Source: a virus | Reading direction: 5' to 3' (one strand) | Length of the DNA stretch: 58,441 nt | Virus record (IMG/VR): IMGVR_UViG_3300017917_002605 | Location: 110,471 to 168,911 of that record | Shown here: positions 21,811-39,423 of the stretch, one piece after another | Layout: each line of letters opens with the position of its first letter | How positions within the stretch are numbered: position 1 is the stretch's first letter | The notes under the pieces: generated by a model | The model's input: only the letters and a program-made list of their open reading frames with translations | What the model was told of the DNA's origin: nothing | The model's database searches: none | Made by a program: the position numbers and the translations under genes

Positions 21811-24800
21811 ATGGCACTTGATACCAATTTTAATACAAATCCATATTATGATGATTTCGATGAAACCAAAAAGTTTCTTCGAACCCTTTTTAAACCAGGT
21901 TTTGCAGTTCAAGCTCGTGAACTGACCCAAGTACAAACACAACTACAGAATCAAATTGGTAAATTTGGTTCGCACGTTTTCCAAAACGGCAGTTTGGTTC
22001 TTGGTGGACAAACTGCTTTACAAGACGCAACTTATCTAAAAATTGATAGCACATATCTTGGTGATTCAGTAAATTATGCTGATTTCCAAGATAAAACAAT
22101 TCTTTCTGCTGACGAAAGCAAACGTGCCGAAGTTATTCTTGCCGTTCCTGTAGAGGGTTCAGACCCAATTACTTTGATGGTAAAACAAATTTATGGTAAT
22201 CCTTTTGTTGCAGGTGATACCATAAAGACAGACGTTTCAGACACCACTTTTGCTACTATTCAAGATGTTGGTGAAGGACAAGTATTTTCTGTTAATGAAG
22301 GTACATTCTTCTATGAAGGATTCTTCATTACCAATGCACAACAAATCGTACCTACTGAAAAATATAGCAACACAACAGCAAATGTTCGTGTTGGTTTTGA
22401 AATTTCAGAATCTTTTGTAACTGCTGCATCCGACACATCACTTCTTGACCCAGCTCAAGATGCCTCCAATTATCAAGCACCAGGTGCTGATAGATTTAAA
22501 ATTGATTTGGTACTTTCAACCAGAGCATTAGATTCTACTGACGATGAGCGATTCATTGAAATGGCTCGTGTTGAAAACGGTGTTCTTGTAAAAGTCGTTA
22601 AGTATCCAATTTACTCTGCACTTGAAGACACATTAGCTCGCCGTACCTATGACGAATCAGGCAATTACACTGTTCGTCCTTTTACGATTGCGTTAGAAAC
22701 AAATTCTGCTAATACCGCACAGACAAACGTATTGTTGTCTCCTGGTAAAGCTTACGTTTTTGGTTATGAATTTGAAACTACAGGCACAACAACTGTAACT
22801 GTAGATAAACCAAGAACATATGTTGATGTTTCTAACCAAAGAATTACTGCTGACTATGGTAACTTTGTTTACACAACAAATCACCGTGGTTCTTTCCCTA
22901 TCGATAGTTTGAAGACTGTTGACCTACATTGCGTACAAAATGGTAGTATCAACCTCACTTCAACTGCAACTTACACCAATACAAAAATTGGTACAGCTCG
23001 TGTTAAATCTATCGAATATGAAACCACAGGTAGTTCTTCCAACACAGGTTCCAATGTATATCGTACTTACTTGTTTGATGTAAACGTAGGTTCTATTACA
23101 GGCAATGTCGGCACCACTGGTGGTGTTTCAACATCCAATACCACACACGTTCAATTGTCAAACACCGCAGTAAGTTATTTCAGCACAGTAAATGATGCAT
23201 ATAAGGGTGCTAAGTTCCGTATTACTGCCGGTCCTGGTTTAGGAAATCAAGTTAAGACCATCACTGGTTTCAACGCAACAACACAGTTTGTTTCTTTGAA
23301 TGAACCTCTAACTGTTGCTCCTCAAGCAAACACACAATTTGCTATTGACTTCGAATTTAATGACCTTGAGTGTCTTTCTGTTGCAAATGCGACCAACCAG
23401 GCAATTATTTCTTCTTCAAATATTGACGTTCGTTCAAAAGATTTGGCGACCGCTTTTGAAGATGTTTTCTTATCTGAAGTCACCAACGAATCTCAAATTT
23501 TCCCACTAGGACAAAATTACGTTGTTCCTGGCCGCACAGGTGATATTTCTCTGTCTTACAAAAGACTGTTTGAAAACCAGGCTTTTGCTGGCAATCAAAC
23601 CACATTCACCCTAGGCTCTGGTGAAGCTATTGCTTCTGCTTCATCTGAGTCTTCAATTAACCAAGCGTATTACATCAGTGTAACTAACAGAAGAACATCT
23701 ACTGCTTACGCAAACGGTGAAATTGTTCGTGCATCCAATGTTTCTATTGATTCTGGTACCGCAACAATTACAGTATCTGGTGCGGCCGATATGTTGGCTA
23801 ACGTTATTGCAGTAATTGATGTAACAAATCCTTCTGCAAAAACCAAAACTTTCCGTTTGGCAAACAACACAGTACAAACAACTTCTGCACCAGATTTCAT
23901 TAATGTGTTTGGTAACAATGCAGTTAATGTTTACACTCAAAACTGCCAAACACATATTGCCAACACTTTTGTTGTTAAGACTCCAGATACACCACAATCT
24001 CTATTCGTTTCAGACGTTTATTCTCTGAATACAGTACTTGATTTCCGTGGTCTTGAAGTTACTGAAGCGAACAAATCTAGTGCTGTTAATATCACATCAC
24101 GTTATACTTTAGTGAATGGTCAAAAAGATTCATATTATGACCACGCATATATCAAATTGAAACCTGGTCAATTGCCACCTGATGGTCCGTTGTTGGTTAC
24201 TTACGACAGATTTATTTCTGCTGATGCTGGTGGTTTTTTTACCGCAGACTCTTACGTAAATGGCGGTTTCGAATATGGTAACATTCCTAAATTCACATCA
24301 CCAACAACTGGTTTTGAATACAATTTAAGAGATTGTTTGGATTTCCGTCCTGTTCGTGCTGACGGTTCTTCTACTGTATCTTTCTACACCACAAAAAATC
24401 CTAAAACACCAGAAAACGGTTCAGACATTATTGTTGATTATTCTTACTATCTACCACGTATCGATAAAGTGGTTTTGAATAAGAATCGTACATTTGAAGT
24501 TGTTAAGGGCATTCCAAACCTAAGACCAAAAGAACCAGAAGACAAGTCTGAAGCAATGACAATGTTTGTTCTTGCTTGCCCGCCATATATTTCTGATGTT
24601 TCTGAAATTCAAGTTTCTGCAATCGACCATAAACGTTACACAATGCGTGATATTGGTGCATTAGAAAAACGTATTTCTAATCTAGAATATTACACTTCTT
24701 TGTCACAACTTGAACAAACAACTTTGACTAAACAAGATTTGACTATTCTTGACAGTCAAAATTTACCACGATTTAAAAATGGTATTGTTGTAGATGCTTT

Positions 24801-27800
24801 CTCTGGCCACTCTGTTGGTGATGTATTCAATGAAGAATATCGTGCCGCTATTGACCCAGTGAAGAAAGAAATGCGTCCGACATTTAACGTGTCTTCACAT
24901 TTATTCACCTTCGATGCAAACAACTCTGTTGGTGTTAAGCGTACTGGTCCAGTTCTTGGTTTGAACTATACCGAAAGGTCTTTCATTAACCAGTCAATGG
25001 CATCTAAAGCAATAAATGTAAACCCATTTAACGTTATCAACTTTGTTGGTAAAGTCAAATTGACTCCAAGCTCTGATGTTTGGGTTGATACTTCCAGAAA
25101 ACCAGATGTTGTTGTTAATACAGGTGGTGAACAAGATGTTTGGAACAGATTGATTGGTAACCAATCTAATTGGAGTTATGAGTTTGGTTCTTGGGAAACA
25201 AAATGGACAGGAACTTCAACTTCCACTCAACGTGAATATGAACAAACATTTGCTTACGGCGTACCACGCCGTGTTCTAGACCGAACTGTTACCACCGCAA
25301 CAGGTACTTCTTCACGCCAAGTTATTGCTAGTCGTGTGACAACCACAACAGTTACCAAAAATCTTGGTGACCGTGTTGTTGATATGTCTGTAATCCCTTA
25401 CATGAGAAACACCACATTCTCTATTCGTGGTGCTGCATTCAAACCAGACACCAAATTGTGGTGTTTCCTTGATGGTGTCGATGTTACTGGTTGTATCACT
25501 CACACCGACCGAATTTATCTAAAACAATCCGCTGCAGGATATAAATTCCCTGCTGACGGAGAAAATCGTTACGGTATTGGTGAAAATGTAAGAATCGTTG
25601 ACGGCAGAACCGGTAACACATTAGCAACCCGTCAAATTTATGACATTGCTAATAATATGATTGAAATGAACACCTTTAGAAATACTTCGGGTGTTAACAT
25701 CAACGATTCATCAAACATCTTTGTTGTTGGTGTCACAAGCGGCGTCAACGTTGCAGTTCAATCATACGAACATTATCTTGGTTATTCTGCCGGTGCTACC
25801 GCAAACACAATCACATTATGGGAAAACGCTGTTGGTTCAAACAACATTGGCAGCATTGTTGGTGATGTTATTCACGTTCGTGATACTACATCTTCACCAT
25901 ATCGTTATCAAACTAAGACTATTGCATCTTACAATGTGTCCACAAGAGTTGTTACAATCAGTGGAACATGGGATTGGATTCCTACAACAAATGACCATTA
26001 CTCATTAGGCAATCCAAAAACTTCTAGATATGGAACTTTTGCTGGTGGTTTCTATTTGCCAGGTTCAAAGTTTAGAACCGGCGAAAAACGTTTCATGTTG
26101 ATTGATAATGCAACAGGAGATATTCCTTCATCCAGAACAAACGGTGATGCAACCTTTACTTCTCAGGGTACATTAAAAACAACTGAAGCAACAATTGTTT
26201 CTTCTATTGTTCCAACGATTGAACGTTCTGTAACAACACAAACTCAACCTGCGGCTCAAACGCTTTCTGTTTCTGAACCTAGAGTTGTTGGTTATTGGGA
26301 CCCATTGGCACAAACATTCTTGGTTGAACCTACAAATAACCCACAAGGTGTGTTTGTTACCAAAATTCGTTTGTGTTTCAAAACTAAAGATAACACGATT
26401 CCAGTCACTGTTCAAATTAGACCAACAGTTAATGGTTATCCACATTCATCAATAGTTTATCCATTGGCTTCTAAGTCTCTGACTCCTGACCTTGTTAAAA
26501 TTACAGACAATCCTAGTTTAGAAGACCCAACAAAATACACTGAATTTGTATTTGATTCTCCAGTTTGCTTGCAACCGGGTGAACACTCATTCGTTGTTCT
26601 TGCAAATTCCAAAAATTACGAATTGTATGTTGGTGAAATAGGTAAAACCGATTTGGTGACTGCTCGCCAAATTTCCGACCAACCATATGGCGGTTCATTG
26701 TTTATTTCACAAAACGGTTCTACTTGGACTGCGGACCAATCATCCGACATTATGTTCCGTGTGTTTGTTGCCGAATATGACACAAACTCAGTTGGAGTTG
26801 CATATTTCAATGTTGATTATCCATCATCCAACACTGTATTTGACCTGGTTCGTTTAGGCACAACAGAATCTGTTGTTGCCAATACTGGTATAACTTACGA
26901 AATAAATTCTACTCGTTTGGATGATGGAACTCTAACCGGATTTGATTTCATTACGCCAAATGAATCCACTTCTTTAGAAGATGGATTTGGTCGCCGTATT
27001 TTGGTGACTGGTGCAAACACCAGCTTTAATGTTAAAGTAACGATGGAAACATCTAATCGTTCCATTACACCAACATTAGACACCACACGATTGAACATCA
27101 TTACTGTTGAAAACATCATCAACAATATGGGACTATCCAATAATGATATCATCGTAACAAACGGCGGAACAGGTTATGTGAACGTAAACAACGTTTCAAT
27201 TACCTTCTCTGGTGGTGGCGGTACAGGTGCCGCTGCGGTTGCTAACGTAACTTCTAACGGTACTATTGACCGAATCTTTGTGACAAATGCTGGTTCTGGT
27301 TATATTACCAACCCAACAATCACAATCTCTACTTTGGCTGGTCCAGGTTCTGGTGCAACCGCAATCGTTAACGGTGAAACCAGTAAGTCTGGTGGTAACG
27401 GACAAGTTCGTTATGTAACTCGCCGTGTGACATTGAATGATGGTTTCGATTCTGGTGATTTGCGTGTATATCTGACCGCATACAAACCACAAGGTGCTCA
27501 GATTTATGTTTACTACAAAGTATTGTCTAAATCTGACCCTGATGAATTCGACAACAAGAACTACCAGTTGATGACACAACTTGGTGATGCAAACTTTACT
27601 TCACTAAGTCAGACAGACTATCGTGAATTGACTTTTGCTCCTGGTGTCAATGGTGTGGCAAACAACGCTGTAACATACACCTCTGGTTCTACCGCATATA
27701 ACAGCTTTAAGACTTTTGCGATTAAGATTGTTCTTGCTGGTACCGATACTGTGTCTGTTCCTAAGATTCGTGATTTCCGTGCGATTGCACTTCCTTCTGG

Positions 27801-27807
27801 AGCTTAA
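21811..27807 (+). CDS. Giant DUF4815-type virion structural protein
   Basis: 1998 aa, the largest gene in the window. The N-terminus (DTNFNTNPYYDDFDETKKFL; FKPGFAVQARELTQVQTQLQ) is the DUF4815 signature found in big structural proteins of T4-like phages from aquatic hosts. Most of the chain is beta-rich with many Asn-Thr-Gly segments. Residues about 1778-1865 carry two Gly-Tyr repeat units (NGGTGYVNVNNVSITFSGG; NAGSGYITNPTITIS). Near 1500-1600 there is a jelly-roll-like section (GVFVTKIRLCFKTKDNTIPV). Likely an outer baseplate or fibre-network component. No enzyme motif is seen. Confidence 0.8.
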   Translation: MALDTNFNTNPYYDDFDETKKFLRTLFKPGFAVQARELTQVQTQLQNQIGKFGSHVFQNGSLVLGGQTALQDATYLKIDSTYLGDSVNYADFQDKTILSADESKRAEVILAVPVEGSDPITLMVKQIYGNPFVAGDTIKTDVSDTTFATIQDVGEGQVFSVNEGTFFYEGFFITNAQQIVPTEKYSNTTANVRVGFEISESFVTAASDTSLLDPAQDASNYQAPGADRFKIDLVLSTRALDSTDDERFIEMARVENGVLVKVVKYPIYSALEDTLARRTYDESGNYTVRPFTIALETNSANTAQTNVLLSPGKAYVFGYEFETTGTTTVTVDKPRTYVDVSNQRITADYGNFVYTTNHRGSFPIDSLKTVDLHCVQNGSINLTSTATYTNTKIGTARVKSIEYETTGSSSNTGSNVYRTYLFDVNVGSITGNVGTTGGVSTSNTTHVQLSNTAVSYFSTVNDAYKGAKFRITAGPGLGNQVKTITGFNATTQFVSLNEPLTVAPQANTQFAIDFEFNDLECLSVANATNQAIISSSNIDVRSKDLATAFEDVFLSEVTNESQIFPLGQNYVVPGRTGDISLSYKRLFENQAFAGNQTTFTLGSGEAIASASSESSINQAYYISVTNRRTSTAYANGEIVRASNVSIDSGTATITVSGAADMLANVIAVIDVTNPSAKTKTFRLANNTVQTTSAPDFINVFGNNAVNVYTQNCQTHIANTFVVKTPDTPQSLFVSDVYSLNTVLDFRGLEVTEANKSSAVNITSRYTLVNGQKDSYYDHAYIKLKPGQLPPDGPLLVTYDRFISADAGGFFTADSYVNGGFEYGNIPKFTSPTTGFEYNLRDCLDFRPVRADGSSTVSFYTTKNPKTPENGSDIIVDYSYYLPRIDKVVLNKNRTFEVVKGIPNLRPKEPEDKSEAMTMFVLACPPYISDVSEIQVSAIDHKRYTMRDIGALEKRISNLEYYTSLSQLEQTTLTKQDLTILDSQNLPRFKNGIVVDAFSGHSVGDVFNEEYRAAIDPVKKEMRPTFNVSSHLFTFDANNSVGVKRTGPVLGLNYTERSFINQSMASKAINVNPFNVINFVGKVKLTPSSDVWVDTSRKPDVVVNTGGEQDVWNRLIGNQSNWSYEFGSWETKWTGTSTSTQREYEQTFAYGVPRRVLDRTVTTATGTSSRQVIASRVTTTTVTKNLGDRVVDMSVIPYMRNTTFSIRGAAFKPDTKLWCFLDGVDVTGCITHTDRIYLKQSAAGYKFPADGENRYGIGENVRIVDGRTGNTLATRQIYDIANNMIEMNTFRNTSGVNINDSSNIFVVGVTSGVNVAVQSYEHYLGYSAGATANTITLWENAVGSNNIGSIVGDVIHVRDTTSSPYRYQTKTIASYNVSTRVVTISGTWDWIPTTNDHYSLGNPKTSRYGTFAGGFYLPGSKFRTGEKRFMLIDNATGDIPSSRTNGDATFTSQGTLKTTEATIVSSIVPTIERSVTTQTQPAAQTLSVSEPRVVGYWDPLAQTFLVEPTNNPQGVFVTKIRLCFKTKDNTIPVTVQIRPTVNGYPHSSIVYPLASKSLTPDLVKITDNPSLEDPTKYTEFVFDSPVCLQPGEHSFVVLANSKNYELYVGEIGKTDLVTARQISDQPYGGSLFISQNGSTWTADQSSDIMFRVFVAEYDTNSVGVAYFNVDYPSSNTVFDLVRLGTTESVVANTGITYEINSTRLDDGTLTGFDFITPNESTSLEDGFGRRILVTGANTSFNVKVTMETSNRSITPTLDTTRLNIITVENIINNMGLSNNDIIVTNGGTGYVNVNNVSITFSGGGGTGAAAVANVTSNGTIDRIFVTNAGSGYITNPTITISTLAGPGSGATAIVNGETSKSGGNGQVRYVTRRVTLNDGFDSGDLRVYLTAYKPQGAQIYVYYKVLSKSDPDEFDNKNYQLMTQLGDANFTSLSQTDYRELTFAPGVNGVANNAVTYTSGSTAYNSFKTFAIKIVLAGTDTVSVPKIRDFRAIALPSGA

Positions 27808-29124: not shown

Positions 29125-29340
29125 ATGGCCTTAACTAGAGTACAAGGTGGTATTTGGGGTGCAGGTGGAAGTGCTAATACAGCATTTCAGACCGGCGTTG
29201 CCATGATGGAAAACGCAAATACCGTTTATAACAGTTATACATTGACAACAAATAATAACGCAATGTCTGTTGGTCCTATTACCATTTTAGAAGGTAAAGC
29301 AATTACAGTACCTACAGGCCAAAGTTGGGTGGTTCTATAA
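29125..29340 (+). CDS. Small fibre protein with terminal GPxTI module
   Basis: 71 aa. The C-terminal 30 residues (NNAMSVGPITILEGKAITVP, then SWVVL) form a short module that also ends the 140-aa protein at 36002 (SAGPLTIANN...WTVF). In both cases the next gene is a C1q-like tip. AAGGATAAA precedes the ATG. Probably a trimeric connector. Confidence 0.65.
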   Translation: MALTRVQGGIWGAGGSANTAFQTGVAMMENANTVYNSYTLTTNNNAMSVGPITILEGKAITVPTGQSWVVL

Positions 29341-29341
29341 G

Positions 29342-29893
29342 ATGGCACTAATTAATACAACAACTACGGGTGTAAGAGGCACCACACTTTTTGCTGACGG
29401 CACTGGTGATTTGAGCATTCAACAGAACGGCGTCACAATTAATAAGGTTACAAAAAATCCAGCTTTTTCGTCATATTTGGGTTCAAATCAAACACCAACC
29501 GAAGGCGTACTAACAAAGATACAATTTAATGTAAAATCTTTTGACACTGAAGGATGTTACGATACAACAAATTATCGTTTTGTTCCAAACGTTGCTGGTT
29601 ATTACTATTTTAGTTTGATGTTAAGTGTTGTATCACTAACTTCAGGTAGAGTTATGGCTTTCCAACCTAGAATTTATAAAAATGGTTCGGCGGTTTCCAT
29701 ATACGAACATAACATGACCATGTCTTCAGACCAAATTGGATTGACAAACTTTTGGTTTGGATACTGTAATGGTTTGTCGGATTATATCGAGGCATACGGA
29801 TACATCAATGATGTTAATTCTGCAAGCACAGGAACGTTTCAAAGTGGTGAAACTAGATGTTTGTTTTCAGGATTTTTAGTAAAGGCGGTATAA
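29342..29893 (+). CDS. C1q/TNF-like receptor-binding tip (class A)
   Basis: 183 aa. The N-terminal 45 residues (NTTTTGVRGTTLFADGTGDL) serve as anchor. The C-terminal 130 residues show the C1q/TNF jelly-roll pattern: FNVKSFDTEGCYDTTNYRF, PNVAGYYYFSLML, IYKNGSAV, and a final FSGFLVKAV. Such domains often cap phage fibres and bind the host surface. A family-1 small gene follows after one base. Confidence 0.72.
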   Translation: MALINTTTTGVRGTTLFADGTGDLSIQQNGVTINKVTKNPAFSSYLGSNQTPTEGVLTKIQFNVKSFDTEGCYDTTNYRFVPNVAGYYYFSLMLSVVSLTSGRVMAFQPRIYKNGSAVSIYEHNMTMSSDQIGLTNFWFGYCNGLSDYIEAYGYINDVNSASTGTFQSGETRCLFSGFLVKAV

Positions 29894-29894
29894 T

Positions 29895-30071
29895 ATGAAT
29901 TTGTTGGAAAAAATTATTTCTTTATATCCGGAATTAGAAACATTTAATTTTGCTTCCGGAATAATTACGTTACAAAACGATAGTGACGGAAAAGGCGACT
30001 ACATAGCCAAATGGGAACACCCAACACTTGCACAACCAACAAAGGAACAGTTAGATGCCATTAGTTCTTAA
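29895..30071 (+). CDS. Family-1 small tip-partner protein
   Basis: 58 aa, too short for usual gene calling. It shares IYPEL-, DGKGDYIAKWEHP- and PTxEQLD-type motifs with the genes at 30573 and 37080. Each copy directly follows a C1q-like tip. It overlaps the next fibre gene by 17 bases, implying coupled translation. Likely a chaperone or cap for the preceding tip, like the small assembly proteins that accompany fibres in other phages; this is inference. Confidence 0.7.
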   Translation: MNLLEKIISLYPELETFNFASGIITLQNDSDGKGDYIAKWEHPTLAQPTKEQLDAISS

Positions 30072-30573
30072 CGGTACAGGTACAGTAACAGGTTTGGCAG
30101 CTGGTGGATTGCCAGATGCAACCATTACTCAGTCCGAATTGGTTTCTGGTATTGCGGGAAATGGTCCTGTTTTTGCTAGTGGTTCGACAGGTTTGACAAG
30201 TATTTCGGCCACAACTTGGACAGCATATACAAATTTTTCTGAAAGCCAATTCGATACAATTAATGGATTTAACAGAACAACTGGAAGATATCAACCAAAC
30301 GTTGCTGGTTATTATTGGGTACAAGGTATAGTAGATTGTGGATATTCTGGTGTAACGTCTACTGCTATTTACGCTTCTATTTTTAAAAATGGAAATAACT
30401 ATAGAGGTGGCACTGCTGGCCAGTATGCGTCAGGAGCATATCCTGCCATCCTTTGCACAAGTGTTGTTTATTTAAATGGCACAACAGATTATATTCAAGT
30501 TTATTGTTACACTTTGCAGTCGATAAGCAACACATCTGGTTCACTTATGGCTTGTATGATTAGGAGTGCATAA
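30055..30573 (+). CDS. C1q/TNF-like receptor-binding tip (class A)
   Basis: 172 aa. A short anchor (PLVLNGTGTVTGLAAGGLPD) is followed by a C1q-like jelly roll: FSESQFDTINGFNRTTGRYQ, PNVAGYYWVQG, IFKNGNNYRGG and YLNGTTDYIQVY. The core matches the class A tips at 29342 and 36424, but the loops differ. Its start lies inside the previous small gene, and its stop overlaps the next start (TAATG). Confidence 0.72.
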   Translation: MPLVLNGTGTVTGLAAGGLPDATITQSELVSGIAGNGPVFASGSTGLTSISATTWTAYTNFSESQFDTINGFNRTTGRYQPNVAGYYWVQGIVDCGYSGVTSTAIYASIFKNGNNYRGGTAGQYASGAYPAILCTSVVYLNGTTDYIQVYCYTLQSISNTSGSLMACMIRSA

Positions 30574-30746
30574 TGCATTTGGTAGAAAAAATTAGAAAAG
30601 TATATCCAGAACTAAAAGATACTGATTTTTTTTCAATCATTATTGTTCAAGATGACAGTGATGGCAATGGTCCTTATATCAAACAGTGGAATCACCCAAC
30701 ACTACCAAGACCAACACAAGAACAACTAGACGCAGTTACAGAATAA
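30573..30746 (+). CDS. Family-1 small tip-partner protein
   Basis: 57 aa. It matches the 29895 and 37080 proteins: KVYPELKDTDF near the start, DDSDGNGPYIKQWNHP in the middle and PRPTQEQLDAV at the end. The TAATG overlap with the C1q-like tip upstream indicates stoichiometric coupling. Function unknown; cognate assembly factor is the favoured inference. Confidence 0.7.
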   Translation: MHLVEKIRKVYPELKDTDFFSIIIVQDDSDGNGPYIKQWNHPTLPRPTQEQLDAVTE

Positions 30747-30756
30747 GGCATAACAA

Positions 30757-31872
30757 ATGAGTGTAATTTATAGTGGAACAGGCATAACATTTGATGATGG
30801 TTCTGTGCAAACTAATAGTTGGACAGGATTCAAAAATCGTATCATCAATGGTGATATGAGAATTGACCAGAGGAACAACGGTTCATCAGTTTCTATCACT
30901 CTTGGAACAAGTAATGGTTTTGTTGTTGATAGATGGCGTTTTCAAAATGCTGGTGGTAGTTCTAGTGTTTTTTCTGCACAGAGAGTTACTGATGCGCCAG
31001 CTGGATTCACTAACTCTTTAAAAGTTACCACAACAACTGCCGCATCAACTCAGGCGGCCGATTCGAAACATCTGTGGTTACCTATCGAAGGATTTGATAC
31101 TGCCGATTTAGATTTTGGTACCGCATCAGCTAAAACTGTAACTTTGTCTTTTTGGGTCAAAAGTTCTAAAACAGGTAATTTTGGTGCAGCTATATCTAAT
31201 GACGGCGCCGCCAGAGCATATAGTTTTCTTTACAACATATCTCAAGCAGATACTTGGGAATATAAAACTGTAACTATTCCTGGTGATACTGTTGCGCCGG
31301 CTTGGTCTAAAAATAATTTTACAGGTATGCGTGTCAACTTCAACATTGGTTCTGGTTCAAATTATACTACAGTACCAAATCAATGGGGTGCTGGTCCCGA
31401 CCGTGGTGCAAATGGACAAATTACTTTACTAGATACATTAAATGCAACATGGCAGATTACTGGTGTACAATTGGAACGTGGAAGTCAAGCATCAAGTTTT
31501 GAATATCGTCCTTATGGAACTGAGTTGGCGTTATGCCAAAGATATTACTGGCGAATTTCTGGATTTTCTGGTCCTTCCGGTTATCCTTCAGTTGGTTCTG
31601 GAACACTCAGAGCTTCAAATATTGCTCGTTTATATGTTAAATTTCCAGTTTCTATGAGAAGCGCTCCAACACTCAATTTTTCTGGTTCTATTAGTGGTAC
31701 AAGCGGAGTTGTAGAAAATACTGTATCATCAATATACGGACAGTATGCTTCAACAGAAACTTCTTTGTTTGATTTGTTGTTTAGTGCCACCACATTTACA
31801 ACAGGATATGGCGTAACTGTATTTGTTAATAATGCATCTACAAATTATGTAGAGGCTTCAGCGGAGTTATAA
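30757..31872 (+). CDS. INGDM-type carbohydrate-binding-like fibre tip (class B)
   Basis: 371 aa. The anchor ([20 protein letters not shown]) is followed by the class B core: [47 protein letters not shown] and [15 protein letters not shown]...LCQRYYW. This looks like a CBM-type jelly roll found in many phage fibres, then a variable beta tip. It ends in SAEL. A family-2 small gene starts one base later. Confidence 0.78.
30835..30876 (+). repeat. 42-base near-identical block shared with 38264-38305
   Basis: The DNA encoding [14 protein letters not shown] in the class B tips at 30757 and 38129 differs at one base in 42, including silent positions, while flanking DNA has diverged. It marks recent duplication or exchange. 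Confidence 0.8.
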
Positions 31873-31873
31873 A

Positions 31874-32050
31874 ATGGAATATAAACTTCAACCTCCTTTT
31901 AGAATTGGTGAAGAAAGTGGTGGCGTAATACGTAAAAGTGATGGCGCTTGTATACCCTTTGACCCAGCCAACACCGATTATCAAGAATACCTAAAGTGGC
32001 TTGCTGAAGGTAACGAACCACTTCCTGCGGATGAACCACCGAGCGAATAA
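31874..32050 (+). CDS. Family-2 small tip-partner protein
   Basis: 58 aa. The shared motif is [20 protein letters not shown] followed by EGN and an acidic Pro-rich tail. The same motif occurs in the genes at 34545 and 39271 and, diverged, at 35773. All four follow class B tips. Similar short segments accompany fibre genes in many phages, consistent with a fibre-assembly function. Confidence 0.75.
31970..32014 (+). repeat. 45-base near-identical block shared with 34623-34667
   Basis: Encodes [15 protein letters not shown] in two family-2 small genes, with a single base difference between copies. Confidence 0.8.
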
Positions 32051-32058
32051 ATAAAAAC

Positions 32059-33219
32059 ATGGCATACTTAGGAAATAACTCATTACCTTTTGACCCAACC
32101 AGAACCGCAGCACAACCCCGTGATGCGGAAAGATTCTCTGGTAACGGTTCAACGGTCAATTTCACATTATCACGTACAGTAAATAATCCTACTGATGTTG
32201 AAGTATTTGTTGAAAACGTTCAGCAAGAACCAATTGTTGCTTACAATATTGTTGGTACTACACTATCATTTACCGAAGCACCACCATCCGGTTCACAAAA
32301 CATCTATGTAATTTACCGTGCATTTAATACTGGTGCTCAAGTTTATGTGCCAGACGGTTCTATTACATACGCTAAGTTGGCTAACAACCTAAAGTTGTTC
32401 ACGAGCGACAACTTAACACCAAACGGCAACAATTCAGTATTCACACTTTCTGATACTCCACCGGATGCAAACACTGTTATCGTATCTGTTGATGGTATTG
32501 TTCAGAGAGCACCAGTTCATTACACTGTTTCTGGACAAACAATTACATTCACATCTCCACCACCAGCTGGTTCAAATGTGCATGTTCGTCACCTTGGTAT
32601 TAGAACAACGGAAACATTGACTGCTATTGCAGCCAATACTTTTATTCCTCAGCCAACAATCAGTTCACCAACAATAACTGGAACAACAACAATTTCAGGT
32701 TTGTTGCCTGCGGCCGCAAACACCACTCAAATTGGTTCTTCAACACAACCATTTGCTGTTGGTCATTTCAATGGTATTAAGTTTCCAGGAACACAATCGG
32801 CAAGTGCTGACGCAAATACACTAGATGATTATGAGGAAGGTACTTGGACTCCAAGTATTCAAGGAAACGCTGCTGCCGGCACGGTCACTTATGGTGCATT
32901 AAGATATGGTTATTACACAAAAGTAGGTAGAAAAGTAACTGTAGGTGGAAGGATAGATTATTCAAATTTCACTGGAGCCTCTGGTTATTTACTCATAAAT
33001 GGACTCCCATTTACATCATTAGGTTCATTAGAATTTATTGGCACATTTATGACAGAGAATTTGGTTTATCCTACCAGCAGTAATTATTGTGTTACTTACA
33101 TATCTGCATCCGCATTTGTTATTCCTTGGGGAATAAGAGATAATGGAGCTTGGCAAACATTTCCTGTTACAGACACGGCCGCAAATATAATTTTTACAAT
33201 CACTTATTTTACAAGTTAA
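32059..33219 (+). CDS. Fibre protein with DDYEEGTWTP tip (class C)
   Basis: 386 aa. Two N-terminal beta modules of the type FSGNGSTVNFTL...FTEAPPSG repeat at about 28-95 and 110-180 (LTPNGNNSVFTLSDTPPDAN). A stalk follows, then the class C junction SADANTLDDYEEGTWTPSI and a beta tip of about 130 residues. The first module is shared with the 140-aa gene at 36002, the junction with the 198-aa gene at 37260. A late-like box AATAAATA (32046-32053) precedes it by five bases. Confidence 0.75.
   Translation: MAYLGNNSLPFDPTRTAAQPRDAERFSGNGSTVNFTLSRTVNNPTDVEVFVENVQQEPIVAYNIVGTTLSFTEAPPSGSQNIYVIYRAFNTGAQVYVPDGSITYAKLANNLKLFTSDNLTPNGNNSVFTLSDTPPDANTVIVSVDGIVQRAPVHYTVSGQTITFTSPPPAGSNVHVRHLGIRTTETLTAIAANTFIPQPTISSPTITGTTTISGLLPAAANTTQIGSSTQPFAVGHFNGIKFPGTQSASADANTLDDYEEGTWTPSIQGNAAAGTVTYGALRYGYYTKVGRKVTVGGRIDYSNFTGASGYLLINGLPFTSLGSLEFIGTFMTENLVYPTSSNYCVTYISASAFVIPWGIRDNGAWQTFPVTDTAANIIFTITYFTS
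32800..32854 (+). repeat. 55-base conserved junction block shared with 37461-37515
   Basis: Encodes the class C junction (SADANTLDDYEEGTWTP). Only a few bases differ from the copy at 37461, whereas upstream anchors and downstream tips are unrelated. Confidence 0.75.
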
Positions 33220-33223
33220 TAAT

Positions 33224-33481
33224 ATGAGTTTAACAAAAGAAACACTAATTGATAAAATTGAAGTTGTGGAAAACGGCACTGTACAAGTGCGTCAAGTTAC
33301 ACGCATCATGGAAGACGGTAATCAACTATCACAATCTTTTCACCGTTGGACCATTTCTCCAGGTCAAGATTATTCCGACCAACCAGATAATGTCAAAGCA
33401 ATTTGCCAAGTAACGCATACTCCAGAAGTTGTTGCTGCATATCAAGCAAAACTGGAAGAAATTAATCTAAGAGCTGAATAA
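33224..33481 (+). CDS. Family-3 small tip-partner protein
   Basis: 85 aa. Highly similar to the 84-aa product at 37873: VQVRQVTRIMED, HRWTISPGQDYSDQ, DNVKAICQV and AAYQAKLEE are shared. Both follow class C (DDYEEGTWTP) tips. The stop overlaps the next tip's ATG (TAATGG). No similarity to families 1 or 2 is visible. Assembly or capping role inferred from position. Confidence 0.75.
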   Translation: MSLTKETLIDKIEVVENGTVQVRQVTRIMEDGNQLSQSFHRWTISPGQDYSDQPDNVKAICQVTHTPEVVAAYQAKLEEINLRAE

Positions 33482-34548
33482 TGGGAATTCAAACAGCACA
33501 ACAAGCACTAGAAAATGAATTAGGTGCATCACCATTTGGTTTTAAAAACATCATAATGAATGGTGATATGTCCGTTAATCAACGAGGCAACACTTCAATA
33601 ACTGTTGGTTCGGGTCAGGCAAACGGCCAAGCTGCATTTCTTACAGACAGATGGCGTTGCTGGTCAGCAGCCAACGGTAATACCTTAGCTGCAACATTTG
33701 AACAAGTTACTGATGCTCCCGAAGGTTTCAAGTACAGTGTAAGAGCAACACCTACTGTCACAGGAACACCCAACAGTCAATTTTATTCTTTTATTTGGCA
33801 AGGCGTAGAGTATAATAATATTCGAAGACTGAAGTGGGGTACTGGACAAGCTTTACCTTTGACTTTATCTTTTTGGGTTAAATCTTCATCGACAGGCACA
33901 TTTTCTGCAATTGTAACCAACAACGGTAATAATGGCATGTCATTTAAAATTTGGCGTGCCACATATACAGTTAATCAATCAAATACTTGGGAATATAAAA
34001 CAATAAGTATTGTTGGTGATACGGATTCCACTTGGTTAAATGCCACTTCGGATAATGGTGTAGGATTATTTGTTGGATTAACTCTGGGTGGTACAACCGG
34101 TATTACTACACCTGTTAATACATGGGATAATACTGCTGCTTATAATCGTGTTGGTGACTTCAATTTCTTCTCATCAACAAGCAATACTTGGCAAGTTACC
34201 GGCATTCAATTAGAAATAGGCCGAGAAGCTACGCCTTTTGATTTTAGACCATATTCAACTGAGTTGTCTCTTTGTGAGAGATATTATGAGGTTTGTGTTG
34301 GTGGTTGGCGTGGTTATGGATATGGTTTTATTGGTGCTGCTGGTGTAAATTTTAGGCAGAAAAAAAGAGCAACGCCAACTGTAACCTTTGTATCTTTTAA
34401 TGCTTCGGAAAATACAGACGGTAGTAATGCGTATTCAGCAAACATTACTGTAAATGGATTTGAGGCTAGATGTGCCTTAACCTCTGGCGGCGGCGCACCA
34501 AATTTTGGTTCTTTTTCTGCAACATATAAATCAGAGATTGAGTTATGA
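33481..34548 (+). CDS. INGDM-type carbohydrate-binding-like fibre tip (class B)
   Basis: 355 aa. It opens with an anchor of about 20 residues, then [51 protein letters not shown] and [15 protein letters not shown]...LCERYYEV. The core is the same as at 30757, 34707 and 38129; the C-terminal 80 residues are distinct. Its stop lies within the start of the family-2 small gene (ATGA-type overlap). Confidence 0.78.
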
Positions 34549-34700
34549 TGTATAAATTAACAGAAAACACAAAAGAAATTATTCGTTTGGTCGACAAAGC
34601 GACTATTCCTTTCGATTCAGAAAACACCGATTACCAAGAATACCTAAAGTGGCTTGCTGAAGGTAACACTCCTGAACCTGCGGACGAACCTACTAAATAA
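34545..34700 (+). CDS. Family-2 small tip-partner protein
   Basis: 51 aa (ATG ATG start; the second ATG at 34548 is possible). The core [20 protein letters not shown] and tail PEPADEP match the proteins at 31874 and 39271. A 45-base stretch (34623-34667) differs from 31970-32014 by a single base, showing recent duplication or exchange. Overlaps the class B tip upstream by four bases. Confidence 0.72.
34623..34667 (+). repeat. 45-base near-identical block shared with 31970-32014
   Basis: Second copy in the family-2 gene at 34545; the flanking codons differ, so similarity stops sharply at its edges. Confidence 0.8.
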
Positions 34701-34706
34701 AACATC

Positions 34707-35771
34707 ATGCCATTAAGTAGAATTAAATCAAATTCAATTAGTAATCCAGTATCTTTAACACAACCTGTTATTGATGGTGCAGGTTACTCTCAGTACCAGT
34801 ATAGAAATAAAATCATCAACGGTGATTTTTCTGTTTGGCAACGTGGTACGTCCGGAAGTTTAGTTGGTGGTCCAGGATATGTTTCTGCTGACCGCTGGAA
34901 AATTTATGTAAACTCTAGCACAACCATGACTTTATCCAGGCAAACATTTACTCCTGGACAAACTGAAGTTCCTGGTAATCCAACTTACTATGCCAGATTT
35001 GACTGGTTGGGTACCGGTGCTTCTCAATTTTTTAGTTTTGAACAAGCAATTGAAGGTGTTCATCACGGTGCTGGCGATTATTTGACCATATCATTTTACG
35101 CTAGAACCGAACAAGGTGATGACATGACTTTAGCTGTCACACAAAAATTTGGTACTGGTGGTTCTTCTGATGTAACTGTGACAAATACTCCTCTTTCTAT
35201 TGATACAACTTGGAAAAAATTTGTTGTAACTGTTGCTGTGCCTTCTATTTCCGGCAAAACAATTGGCACAGATAATCATTTACTGGTTACTTGGTTTAGA
35301 AGCGGCACACTAAATTCTTATTTGGATATTGCAGATGTGCAGGTAGAAGTTGGTCAAGTTGCTACTCCTTTTGAGCGTAGACCTCCAGCACTTGAATTGG
35401 CTTTGTGTCAAAGATATTTTTATAGTGTTACATTACCAAGAGATACTAACCTTTTTTATCCAGCAGTTGTATATGTTGGTGCCACTGGGACATTGATTCA
35501 GGCTCTGCCGGTGACATTATTAATGCGAACAACTCCAACCGCTTCTACCATTATAGGAACAGCAAAACCAACATTCATTCGATATGACTACGGCACAAGT
35601 TCTCAACAAACCATAACGTCCATTTTTGCTACTGTTCGTTCAACTTCTGGAACTTATTGGATGGAAGTCCAATATGTAGCCGTTGGTTCTTGGGGTTCAG
35701 CAGGACACTCAGGTGTTGTTTCATGGGACACAGGAACTAGCAGTGTAATTACTCTTTCTGCGGAATTATAA
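34707..35771 (+). CDS. INGDF-type carbohydrate-binding-like fibre tip (class B, diverged)
   Basis: 354 aa. It has NKIINGDFSVWQRG, SADRWKIY, LTISFYARTEQGDDM, TWKKFVVTVAVPS and IADVQVEVGQVATPF...LCQRYFYS, so the class B order is kept but the sequence has diverged more than the other three. Ends in LSAEL. The partner gene begins one base after its stop. Preceded by CTAAATAAA at 34693. Confidence 0.76.
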   Translation: MPLSRIKSNSISNPVSLTQPVIDGAGYSQYQYRNKIINGDFSVWQRGTSGSLVGGPGYVSADRWKIYVNSSTTMTLSRQTFTPGQTEVPGNPTYYARFDWLGTGASQFFSFEQAIEGVHHGAGDYLTISFYARTEQGDDMTLAVTQKFGTGGSSDVTVTNTPLSIDTTWKKFVVTVAVPSISGKTIGTDNHLLVTWFRSGTLNSYLDIADVQVEVGQVATPFERRPPALELALCQRYFYSVTLPRDTNLFYPAVVYVGATGTLIQALPVTLLMRTTPTASTIIGTAKPTFIRYDYGTSSQQTITSIFATVRSTSGTYWMEVQYVAVGSWGSAGHSGVVSWDTGTSSVITLSAEL

Positions 35772-35772
35772 T

Positions 35773-35991
35773 ATGGAACAAAAAATTAACGTTTATAAAC
35801 TAATCGACAGTATGAAAGATACCATTTATAGAACAAATGATAACGCTTGCATACCTATTGAACCTAGAAATATAGATTACGTCTTTTTTAAAATTGAAAT
35901 GGAAAAAGGTTTGGCTGAATTACAAGATGTTACAGGCACAGTTATGACTAGAGAACAATGCCTTGATTTTATCTCCAAATTACCAAACTAA
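35773..35991 (+). CDS. Diverged family-2 small tip-partner protein
   Basis: 72 aa, longer than the other family-2 members. It keeps the order YRTNDNACIPIEPRNIDYVF, then KGLAELQD and TREQCLDFISKL. The 'NACIP...P.N.DY' core aligns with [12 protein letters not shown] of the other members. It follows the most diverged class B tip, which suggests that tip and partner have diverged together. Confidence 0.68.
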   Translation: MEQKINVYKLIDSMKDTIYRTNDNACIPIEPRNIDYVFFKIEMEKGLAELQDVTGTVMTREQCLDFISKLPN

Positions 35992-36001
35992 ATAAAAGAC
36001 T

Positions 36002-36424
36002 ATGGCATATCTTGGTAACCAACAAATAAACGGAACCTTTAATTCCCAGTTCTTTTCTGGTGATGGTTCCACAACAGAATTCACGTTACAGTATTCAACT
36101 GGTAACGAAGCTTCCGTATTGGTCTTCATCACTGGTGTTAAACAGCAGACCACTACCTATGCATTGATTAACGGTAAGATTGTTTTTACTGAAGCGCCAC
36201 CAGCTGGATACAATAACATTGAATTGGTTTATCTTGGTGACCGTGTTCAAGTTAATCCTTACCTAAGTGCAGATTCACAAGGTATTATCAGACTTAACGC
36301 AAGCGTATTGACAGAAAACGTGACAATTACAACCGGTTATAATGCATCTTCTGCCGGTCCATTGACCATTGCAAATAACGTTGTTGTAACAATCGCAAAC
36401 AACTCTACTTGGACGGTGTTCTAA
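36002..36424 (+). CDS. Fibre anchor/stalk protein with GPxTI terminal module
   Basis: 140 aa. The first 85 residues match the N-terminal beta module of the 386-aa fibre (FSGDGSTTEFTL; FTEAPPAGYNN). The last 30 residues (SSAGPLTIANNVVVTI, then WTVF) match the end of the 71-aa protein at 29125. It lacks a tip; the following gene, overlapping by one base, supplies a C1q-like one. It could be a natural connector or a remnant of a longer fibre. Confidence 0.7.
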   Translation: MAYLGNQQINGTFNSQFFSGDGSTTEFTLQYSTGNEASVLVFITGVKQQTTTYALINGKIVFTEAPPAGYNNIELVYLGDRVQVNPYLSADSQGIIRLNASVLTENVTITTGYNASSAGPLTIANNVVVTIANNSTWTVF

Positions 36425-37080
36425 TGGCAGGCACAATTATTGCAGATTACATCCGTGCGGATGCTAACAAATTAAGTTTGAATGTAGGCAATACTACTTT
36501 TGCCACAATTAATTCTTCAGGTTTTTTCAGTAACACCGGTGTTCAAATTATTGACCAAAATGGTCAAGTTGGTGCATTATCTGTAGGTACCAACCAATTA
36601 CAAACTGGTGCTGTTACACAAACAAAAATTGGTTCTAATGTTGCTGGAACAGGCCCAATTTTTATAACATCAATGGGTGCGGCACAAACTTTAACAAGTG
36701 CTGTTTGGACTAAAGTTGCCTTTGATACAGAAAGTGTTGATTCACATAACTGTTATAACACTTCTCTTTATAGATTTACGCCGACTGTTGCCGGTTATTA
36801 TCAATTCACATTACAATTCACAGCTGGTACAGGTAATATTCAAGCAGTTCAAAGCGGACTTTATAAAAACGGAAGTGCAATTGCATGGAACGTAAATTAT
36901 TTAATGTCTGTAAGTTATGGAGATGATTTAACATCTTCTTTGACAAAATTGGTTTATATGAATGGTACTACAGACTATATTGAACCTTATGGCTATGTGG
37001 TTGACGCTTCTGCCGGTAGTGATGTTATATTTTCAAGCATATATTCTCATTTTGAAGGTTTCTTGGCAAGGGCTGCATAA
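36424..37080 (+). CDS. C1q/TNF-like receptor-binding tip (class A)
   Basis: 218 aa from the ATG in TAATGG at 36424; an upstream in-frame ATG at 36409 lies inside the previous gene. The anchor MAGTIIADYIRADANKLSL is shared in form with the genes at 37260 and 38129. The C-terminal 125 residues are C1q-like: FDTESVDSHNCYNTSLYRF, PTVAGYYQFTLQF, LYKNGSAI, YMNGTTDYIEPYGYV and FEGFLARAA. The stop overlaps the next small gene. Confidence 0.75.
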   Translation: MAGTIIADYIRADANKLSLNVGNTTFATINSSGFFSNTGVQIIDQNGQVGALSVGTNQLQTGAVTQTKIGSNVAGTGPIFITSMGAAQTLTSAVWTKVAFDTESVDSHNCYNTSLYRFTPTVAGYYQFTLQFTAGTGNIQAVQSGLYKNGSAIAWNVNYLMSVSYGDDLTSSLTKLVYMNGTTDYIEPYGYVVDASAGSDVIFSSIYSHFEGFLARAA

Positions 37081-37256
37081 TGAATTTAACGCAAAAAATT
37101 TTAAAAATATATCCTGAATTGTCACAAAAAGATTTTTCTGGAAAAGTTATTGAATTGCGAAATGATTTGGACGGAAAAGGTGATTACATCGCCAAATGGG
37201 AACATCCTACATATCCTAGACCAACGCAAGAACAATTAGATAGTGTGGAAGAATAA
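37080..37256 (+). CDS. Family-1 small tip-partner protein
   Basis: 58 aa. It aligns with 29895 and 30573: MNLTQKILKIYPELSQKDF at the start, DGKGDYIAKWEHP in the middle, PRPTQEQLD near the end. The DGKGDYIAKWEHP segment is identical to the 29895 product. It overlaps the stop of the class A tip by one base. Confidence 0.72.
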   Translation: MNLTQKILKIYPELSQKDFSGKVIELRNDLDGKGDYIAKWEHPTYPRPTQEQLDSVEE

Positions 37257-37259
37257 CAC

Positions 37260-37856
37260 ATGGCAGGCATTTTAAAAGTCGATAGAGTACAATCAGATTC
37301 CAATTTGGCATTTCAAATTGGTTCTTCTAATGTTGCCTATTTTAATACCACCGGTTTGAACATAACTGGCGGTGAAATTATTGCTGGTGGTTCCACTCTG
37401 AGAACATCTGGTGGCATGTTATATGCAAACAGTGGTATTGCTTTTCCTGGAACACATGTTGCAAGTGCTGACCCAAATACTTTAGATGATTATGAAGAAG
37501 GTACTTGGACTCCAACAACAATAAGTTTAAACAATATTAGTAGTATAACAATAAGTTATGCCTCTTATATTAAAGTAGGAAGATTAGTTCATTGTTCGAT
37601 GTATGGTACCGCTGCAGTAACTTCCACTTCCACCAATACCTATTTTGGTTTTTCTTTACCGTTTGTTGCAGTAAACAACACAGTCGCACCATCTGGGACA
37701 TTTAATTTTGCTGGCGCAACAAATAATTTAGGAACAGTGATTGATTGGTCAGGTTCCACCAATGATTATTTTGGTATTTGGGTGCCTTCGGCGAATATGT
37801 TGAATAACGGCACATTAAGTTGGCAATTAGGATTTACCTATCCAACAGTTTCTTAA
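37260..37856 (+). CDS. Fibre protein with DDYEEGTWTP tip (class C)
   Basis: 198 aa. A short MAGILKVDRVQSDS anchor, a stalk (NVAYFNTTGLNITGGEI), then the class C junction SADPNTLDDYEEGTWTPTTI and a beta tip of about 105 residues, much shorter than the 386-aa relative. The junction DNA (37461-37515) is nearly the same as 32800-32854. A family-3 gene follows 16 bases downstream. Confidence 0.75.
   Translation: MAGILKVDRVQSDSNLAFQIGSSNVAYFNTTGLNITGGEIIAGGSTLRTSGGMLYANSGIAFPGTHVASADPNTLDDYEEGTWTPTTISLNNISSITISYASYIKVGRLVHCSMYGTAAVTSTSTNTYFGFSLPFVAVNNTVAPSGTFNFAGATNNLGTVIDWSGSTNDYFGIWVPSANMLNNGTLSWQLGFTYPTVS
37461..37515 (+). repeat. 55-base conserved junction block shared with 32800-32854
   Basis: Second copy of the class C junction, lying between the MAGI-type anchor and a shorter tip. 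Confidence 0.75.
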
Positions 37857-37872
37857 TTTATGGTAGAAAAAA

Positions 37873-38127
37873 ATGAGTTTATCTAAAGAAATCAGTATCG
37901 ATAAAATCGAAGTTGTTGAACCTGGTATTGTTCAGGTTCGTCAAGTAACACGTATTATGGAAGATGATAATCTACTATCTTCTTCTTATCATCGTTGGAC
38001 TATTGCTCCCGGCCAAGATTATTCTGACCAATCAGATAACGTCAAAGCAATTTGCCAAGTAGTTCATACACCACAAGTTATTGCTGCATATCAAGCAAAA
38101 TTGGAAGAAAGCACATTAGGAAAATAA
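37873..38127 (+). CDS. Family-3 small tip-partner protein
   Basis: 84 aa, a close paralogue of the 85-aa protein at 33224: IDKIEVVEPG, VQVRQVTRIMEDDN, HRWTIAPGQDYSDQ and AICQVVHTP are conserved. The two genes differ at many silent sites, so the protein similarity is maintained by selection rather than very recent copying. It follows a class C tip. Confidence 0.75.
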   Translation: MSLSKEISIDKIEVVEPGIVQVRQVTRIMEDDNLLSSSYHRWTIAPGQDYSDQSDNVKAICQVVHTPQVIAAYQAKLEESTLGK

Positions 38128-38128
38128 C

Positions 38129-39274
38129 ATGGCAGGTACAATTGTAGTTGACCGAATTGAGTCTGATGGAAGTTATGCTTCCACAATTAATGTTGCCTCA
38201 AAGGTAAATTTTACTGGTGGTGTTCAAGTTGGCGGCCAAGATGCCACATTTGGTGGTATGCGTAATCGTATCATCAATGGTGATATGAGAATTGACCAAA
38301 GGAACGTTGGAGTAACCACTACTCCAGCTGATTTTGCTTTCATTACAGATAGATGGCAAGTTCGTCAAAGTACAGCTTCAAAAATGTCGGCTGGTCAAAG
38401 CACAGTAGTTCCCGTAGGTTTTTCTAATTCTTTAGCAATAACTTCTCTTTCATCATACACCGTTTTATCTAGTGATATTTACACAGTTAGACAACAGATT
38501 GAAGGTTTTAATACTTCAGATTTTGGTTGGGGTACCGCAAATGCAAAACCTGTCACCTTGTCTTTTTGGGTACGTTCTTCATTAACAGGAACTTTTGGTG
38601 GTTCTGCATTGAATAATGGTAACAATAGAAGTTATGTTTTTTCTTATACAATAAATCAAGCAGATACCTGGGAATATAAAACAATAATTATTCCTGGAGA
38701 CACTACAGGAACCTGGCAAACAAACAACCAACGTGGAGTTCAAATATCTTTTGGATTAGGTGTAGGTTCTACACAATCGGGTACAGCAGGCGCCTGGTCT
38801 TCTAATAATTATGCTTCCGTAACTGGTGCTGTTAGTTTGGTTGGAACAAACGCAGCTACTTGGTATTTAACTGGTGTCCAATTAGAATTAGGTTCTGTAG
38901 CAACATCTTTTGAAATGAGACCATATGGAGCCGAATTAGCTTTGTGTCAAAGATACTATTCAAAATCTTATAATATTAACGTTAAACCAGGAACAGTATC
39001 TTCTTATGCTGGTGTGCTGGCTGTGGTTCCTTATTCTACAGGTTTGCAATATACAACTTGGATTATTCAATTTAAACAAACCATGAGAACTGCTCCAACT
39101 GTTTTAGTGTATAGTCCTGAAACAGGAGCATCTGGTAACTGTTATAATGGCGCAGGAGATGTTGCAGCAGGAGCATCAAGTATTGGTGAATCTGGTTGTT
39201 TTGCTAGAAATACGGCCAGTGCAAGCACTGGATATTTTGCTTATATTCAATATACAGCTGAAGCGGAGTTATGA
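38129..39274 (+). CDS. INGDM-type carbohydrate-binding-like fibre tip (class B)
   Basis: 381 aa. The anchor [20 protein letters not shown] resembles those at 36424 and 37260, but the remainder is class [51 protein letters not shown] and [15 protein letters not shown]...LCQRYYSK. Thus anchor and tip come from different gene classes. It ends in AEAEL and overlaps the family-2 gene by four bases. Confidence 0.78.
38264..38305 (+). repeat. 42-base near-identical block shared with 30835-30876
   Basis: Second copy of the class B core block; one mismatch against the first copy, located at the junction between anchor and tip domains. Confidence 0.8.
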
Positions 39275-39423
39275 TGTATAAATTAGATTCAGAACCAAAT
39301 GTTGTTATACGTTTAAAAGATAAAGCCTGTATTCCTTTTGACCCAGCAAACACCGACTATCAAGAATATTTGAAGTGGTTGGAACAAGGAAACACTCCTG
39401 AACCGGCAGACCCAATAGAATAA
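39271..39423 (+). CDS. Family-2 small tip-partner protein
   Basis: 50 aa (double ATG start, second at 39274). Core [20 protein letters not shown], tail NTPEPADP. Last gene of the adhesin array, immediately before a terminator, and paired with a class B tip. The double-ATG start and four-base overlap are the same as at 34545. Confidence 0.73.

Follow-up and report, generated by a model that had tools for sequence, protein, structure and literature searches.

Three unrelated families of small phage proteins, each paired with its own class of fibre tip, as candidate tip-specific assembly factors

In a contractile-tailed phage, nine fibre tip genes are each followed by a gene for a small partner protein, and the partners fall into three families that keep strictly to three classes of tip: family 1 to C1q-like tips, family 2 to INGDM tips and family 3 to DDYEEGTWTP (DDY) tips. 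The pairing is a genuine and widespread pattern, with high specificity for tip class. It is likely, in our judgement, that these three unrelated families are tip-class-specific folding or assembly factors, i.e., minimal intermolecular chaperones carried in exchangeable cassettes.

The array of tips and partners

The window is the whole stretch of DNA analysed here (58,441 nucleotides; positions 110471-168911 of a 168.9-kb virus record, IMGVR_UViG_3300017917_002605). PHROG matches identified genes for the sheath, baseplate wedge, hub, portal and terminase, and therefore the phage is contractile-tailed. The initial annotation had described nine tip genes, each followed by a gene of 50-85 aa that overlaps it by up to 4 bp or begins within 16 bp; the nine tip genes and nine small genes were confirmed at their positions, with tip-to-partner gaps of -4, -4, -1, -1, +1, +1, +1, +4 and +16 bp (n=9) and partner lengths of 50-85 aa. 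The features are as follows.

29125..29340, + strand: fourth-class tip without partner, VTVPTGQSWVVL end (class without any of the three partners, 227/227)
29342..29893, + strand: C1q-class tip 1 (Pfam C1q E 2.1e-5, above cutoff)
29895..30071, + strand: family 1 partner (XkdW), 58 aa (Pfam XkdW PF09636 E 8.1e-7, above cutoff)
30055..30573, + strand: C1q-class tip 2 (alignment with C1q-class tips)
30573..30746, + strand: family 1 partner (XkdW), 57 aa (family 1 alignment)
30757..31872, + strand: INGDM-class tip 1 (phrog_4492 tail fibre, C-terminal part, E 1.5e-57)
31874..32050, + strand: family 2 partner, 58 aa (phrog_20370 E 2.8e-13; AlphaFold2 pLDDT 84.5)
32059..33219, + strand: DDYEEGTWTP-class tip 1 (phrog_29288/17970 over residues 217-323)
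33224..33481, + strand: family 3 partner, 85 aa (phrog_6228 E 5e-19; AlphaFold2 pLDDT 96.4)
33481..34548, + strand: INGDM-class tip 2 (INGDM-class tip alignment)
34545..34700, + strand: family 2 partner, 51 aa (family 2 alignment)
34707..35771, + strand: INGDF-class tip 3, divergent (phrog_4492 E 5.3e-59)
35773..35991, + strand: family 2 partner, 72 aa, divergent, with C-terminal extension (phrog_20370 E 0.0045; profile match E 4.6e-13)
36002..36424, + strand: fourth-class tip without partner, VTIANNSTWTVF end (phrog_5342 tail fibre C-terminus E 6.4e-12; class 227/227 without partners)
36424..37080, + strand: C1q-class tip 3, ATG start inside ORF 36409-37080 (C1q-class tip alignment)
37080..37256, + strand: family 1 partner (XkdW), 58 aa (Pfam XkdW E 3.4e-7, above cutoff)
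37260..37856, + strand: DDYEEGTWTP-class tip 2 (phrog_17970 E 4.3e-7)
37873..38127, + strand: family 3 partner, 84 aa (79% identity to the partner at 33224)
38129..39274, + strand: INGDM-class tip 4 (INGDM-class tip alignment)
39271..39423, + strand: family 2 partner, 50 aa (profile match E 3.5e-27)

The short tips at 29125-29340 and 36002-36424 belong to the same array and had gone uncounted in the initial annotation. Within the window, the members of families 1, 2 and 3 each align with one another as described, although the signature given for family 2 (CIPF/I) was slightly off and is really [CT]IP[FI], because the member at 34545 has ATIPFD; the member at 35773 is the divergent one of 72 aa. 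A profile search of the whole 168.9-kb record recovered three family 1, four family 2 and two family 3 genes and no further copies. The absence of mismatched pairs despite the shuffled gene order was borne out (9/9), an outcome that random re-pairing would give with a chance of 8e-4. The small ORFs behave like genes: substitutions are concentrated at third codon positions (0.49-0.58), and Shine-Dalgarno-like sites lie upstream of most of them.

Class matching in viral metagenomes and named phages

Scans of IMG/VR with the partner families gave 239 loci, to which the window was added; as these loci match the window partners best, they sample near relatives. An upstream ORF was present for 388 partner genes, and it was of the C1q class for family 1 (117/117), of the INGDM class for family 2 (172/172) and of the DDY class for family 3 (94/99), i.e., 383 of 388 were direct matches and none was a cross-class match, which is the tabulation that the initial annotation had proposed as a check. 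Four of the five family 3 exceptions are near-identical loci in which a tandem second family 3 gene lies behind the DDY tip, and in the fifth an unrelated ORF intervenes between tip and partner. The first-round counts, obtained with tip profiles from the window tips alone, were 117, 171 and 89. Clustering at 85% partner identity left 74, 136 and 59 clusters for families 1, 2 and 3; for these 269 non-redundant pairs the chance expectation is ~1e-118, a figure that treats the pairs as more independent than they are, given their shared ancestry.

Independent scans with the tip domains gave 290 matched and 0 mismatched pairs: family 2 followed 128 of 137 INGDM tips, family 3 followed 84 of 95 DDY tips, and family 1 followed 78 of 125 C1q tips. 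Several of the nine leftover INGDM tips are accompanied by a divergent family-2-like gene starting M[IN]Y[KQ]. The C1q tips without XkdW directly downstream (47/125, ~38%) are mostly a subgroup ending FGAYRIGS or KLIG, together with tandem tips whose last base also belongs to the next tip. The claim that the tips are "always" paired is therefore too strong for the C1q class, although no mismatches were found; occurrence beside unrelated tip classes at chance frequency, which the initial annotation had named as contrary evidence, was seen neither from the partners nor from the tips. A fourth tip class, ending VTVPSGSxWVVV, was without any of the three partners in all 227 cases, and therefore a partner goes with particular domains.

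In deposited phages, 15 of 15 pairs were class-matched, in 12 phages of several families (MEP401, P-TIM68, P-SCSP1u, HTVC142P, S-2L, Kaagvere, ct2os315, S-CAM4, ACP17, ctz7E20, CRP-804 and Simon). No statement of the tip/partner pairing was found in the literature searched.

Identity of the partner families

By profile homology, family 1 is Pfam XkdW (PF09636), a common phage protein of unknown function: it scored 29.1 and 30.4 bits against a curated cutoff of 24.6, and its profile matched the solved XkdW of PBSX (PDB 2HG7) at E 1.8e-5. The C1q tip at 29342 scored 25.2 bits against PF00386 (cutoff 23.7). The window members, at 57-58 aa, end without the C-terminal extension that follows the Pfam domain in long forms of 104-145 aa, such as the Bacillus and SAR11 members; the Pfam definition does not include this extension. 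Like family 1, the long XkdW proteins of Bacillus phage PBP180, Paenibacillus phage Unity and the SAR11 phages HTVC026P, HTVC010P and HTVC131P each stand directly behind a C1q-class domain (upstream E 2.2e-14, 9e-16, 1.7e-19, 2.4e-11 and 1e-36, respectively); the window phage differs in having several copies per genome. These distant tips were sub-threshold or without a match against Pfam C1q and were matched by the C1q-class profile built here. The tip gene of HTVC010P seems to be split in the deposited annotation. In one bacterial locus (L497), a family 1 gene is preceded by a family 2 gene and followed by its C1q tip, and among the 297 genomes of the phylum of genome G002, XkdW was found in G002 itself only.

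A tail-fibre-assembly profile (phrog_8746) was matched by 12 of 68 family 1 members (best 1.4e-4). In the Bacillus phages Sam46 and Sam112, mutations in the C-terminal coiled coil of an XkdW-like protein alter plaque type (PMC8190038), which supports a role of XkdW-like proteins in tail function. The account of host-recognition island genes in a 2014 metavirome study includes both C1q proteins and XkdW, with no link noted between them in the passages concerned (PMC3909814).

Families 2 and 3 correspond to phrog_20370/34019 and phrog_6228, respectively, which are PHROGs of unknown function; for the INGDM tips, the match is to the C-terminus of a tail-fibre PHROG. AlphaFold2 predicts one helix and three short strands for family 2 (pLDDT 84.5) and two helices and three long strands for family 3 (pLDDT 96.4). 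Neither family had a significant relative among solved structures, by sequence or by the fold of the models, nor a match above the curated cutoff to described chaperone families. Family 3 gave no tail-fibre-assembly profile match, and Pfam Tfa models matched none of the partner families above cutoff. In the family 2 protein of Kaagvere, a C-terminal extension matches the tail-fibre-assembly profiles phrog_4628/188/8746. Common ancestry of the three families was rejected (profile-profile probabilities <1%). A search for natural tip-partner fusions found none, the long N-terminal extensions being out-of-frame noise or an HNH insertion.

Cassette structure, translation signals and conservation

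Among 331 short tips, N-terminal anchors are common to different tip classes in 152 sequence pairs (e.g., a DDY and an INGDM tip with 78% identity across 40 residues), and in such pairs the partner family changes along with the C-terminal domain. Since anchors are exchanged between classes and the partner tracks the C-terminal domain, the cassette consists of the C-terminal domain plus the partner.

The last tip codons show a strong synonymous bias. INGDM tips end in ..GCG GAG TTA, with GAG in 119 of 138 cases at that codon compared with 33% in the gene body, and at the end of C1q tips AGG is used in 80 of 95 cases compared with 20%. In both classes the bias places the Shine-Dalgarno of the partner within the last codons of the tip, and a ribosome-binding site written in this way suggests translational coupling. 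The tip tails SAEL and R-x-A were considered as partner-binding motifs and rejected, as R-x-A tails precede other tips too; the tails are also confounded because their codons double as the Shine-Dalgarno of the gene that follows.

Sequence conservation is higher in the partners than in the tips (mean identity 69 vs 37%, 51 vs 41% and 47 vs 25%), which argues against receptor-binding adhesins and for recognition of features common to a class. No pairing specificity was found below the class level when partner subtype was compared with tip similarity in the INGDM class (partner subtype vs nearest tips, p ~0.7; rarer subtype 9/136), and four INGDM tips with similar partners would be hard to tell apart for this reason. 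The presence of many tips per array implies choice or mixture, and the initial annotation had suggested that the partners could be selectors or regulators of which tip is mounted. This part of its reading is not supported and we regard it as highly improbable: below-class specificity was not found, the partners do not have the variability expected of selectors or adhesins, and in the array genes examined we noticed no invertase, reverse transcriptase or regulator.

Tip-partner distance correlations are weak (rho 0.25-0.35), and so is window-by-window covariation, which is about zero at the variable end beside the partner and higher in more conserved parts; we do not count the covariation as proof, because saturation could explain the pattern. 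Weak correlations and weak within-class specificity are what might be seen if a tip domain and its small neighbour had simply arisen together and co-travelled by overlap, without functional interaction; moreover, tip-partner recombination is rare because the genes overlap or nearly touch. We think such mere linkage improbable, however, given that recombination is frequent on the anchor side, that the small genes are under purifying selection, that the pairing is kept even where the partner is duplicated, and that it persists across the deep divergence from Bacillus to SAR11 phages.

Comparison with known fibre chaperones and adhesins

The assembly-factor reading has a precedent in gp24/gp25 of phage Pam3 (PDB 7YPX), where a small protein gene likewise adjoins a TNF-like tip gene. 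The 55-residue N-terminal domain of gp25 (residues 1-55) binds the tip, the C-terminal helices trimerise, and the protein, which is not found in virions, promotes a soluble trimeric fibre; according to the authors, differing N-terminal domains are attached to a conserved C-terminal domain (PMC9608196). The tip-binding domain is close in size to families 1 and 2, whereas gp25 as a whole has 162 aa with a trimerising helical domain, and no kinship in sequence with families 1-3 was seen. As in the Tfa/Pam3 gp25 type, the partner gene in the window is directly beside the fibre gene (9/9), but the two-domain plan with C-terminal helical trimerisation is absent from window families 1 and 2, which are single domains of 50-72 aa. 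By analogy, these two families resemble the N-terminal half of two-domain chaperones, the part that recognises the tip, with the C-terminal oligomerising half missing; longer family 1 and 2 proteins of other phages carry C-terminal extensions.

The chaperones of Mu (Tfa), V22 and A5 are larger than the partners described here. In Mu and in the Alteromonas phages V22 and A5, as in our array, a cognate gene adjoins its fibre gene and is exchanged with it between phages (PMC10579305), but that paper has no counterpart to three class-specific families serving several tips per array. T-even gp38 is likewise encoded by a small gene near the distal fibre gene and acts at the fibre tip. Adhesins of this type have variable glycine-rich loops; hypervariable receptor-contacting loops were not seen in the partners, which are conserved above their tips.

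The partners share their genetic position with Mu Tfa and gp38, and they might similarly remain on the mature fibre tip as caps or accessory structural proteins, with a role in the virion and not in folding; Mu Tfa is kept in the mature phage, while the Pam3 chaperone is absent from virions (PMC9608196). The latter observation, and a conservation unlike that of gp38-type adhesins with their hypervariable tips, make permanent caps unlikely in our view.

Proposed role and implications

The initial annotation had proposed that the partners are cognate factors for folding or capping the tip within an exchangeable cassette system, and this part of its interpretation is favoured by class matching across phage families, anchor swapping, translational coupling, partner conservation and the Pam3 gp24-gp25 precedent. 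We infer that the partner acts as a chaperone on the tip. It would be translated together with a C-terminal receptor-binding domain of one class (C1q/TNF-like, INGDM or DDYEEGTWTP), would probably bind class-common features while three tip chains meet, would aid folding and trimerisation of the tip, and would be released after assembly. The C-terminal domain and its partner would recombine as one unit that is moved onto different N-terminal anchors, and family 1 (XkdW) would serve the C1q-like tips of both Gram-negative and Gram-positive phages.

Whether this extends to a general code in tailed phages, in which several tip fold classes each have their own minimal dedicated chaperone family and XkdW is the chaperone of C1q/TNF-like tips across Gram-positive and Gram-negative phages, we judge to be an even call. 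If true, the downstream small gene would reveal the class of a tip, so that receptor-binding tips in marine and freshwater viromes could be found and typed by a sequence rule, and the pairing would tell which small gene to keep with a tip in fibre expression. It would also offer a testable function for XkdW, whose Pfam family includes a solved structure, and for the unnamed PHROG families, and the naturally minimal partners of 50-85 aa may serve as simple models of how the tip-recognition specificity of chaperones is built.

Fibre tips and their surroundings

Immediately upstream of the tip/partner array in the window lies a large structural protein, and within the array there are two tips of a fourth class, which end in VTVPSGSxWVVV:

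21811-27807, structural protein of 1998 aa
29125-29340, fourth-class tip
36002-36424, fourth-class tip

The N-terminal 500 aa of the structural protein are matched by phrog_358, a family of unknown function (E 2.2e-117), and the protein is a candidate for the mount of the short fibres. Partners of families 1, 2 and 3 were absent at fourth-class tips in all cases (227/227); these tips are presumably self-folding.

Variation in partner arrangement

In five loci (L179, L136, L188, L190 and L357) a C1q tip lacks XkdW (the family 1 partner) and is followed by a gene of 85-91 aa (MSKTYTITLSAAEDKALGYVAFSQQDWIDNA..), which possibly represents a further small family tied either to tips or to the array end. 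XkdW precedes the C1q tip in a Flavobacteriaceae MAG (L497:3982-4650; order family 2, XkdW, C1q tip), the sole order inversion observed. A single DDY tip is followed by two tandem family 3 genes in L229-L232 (3746-4264).

Endonuclease-like ORFs lie within or adjoin partner genes (L081:6814-7434, L197:2-478), and also 3' of tips in L317 and L425. The L081 ORF, which is joined to a family 2 gene's tail, matches Pfam HNH (E 1.8e-6); for L197, L317 and L425 the resemblance was judged by eye and is only suggestive. Homing elements might drive the exchange of cassettes (tip C-terminal domain plus partner).
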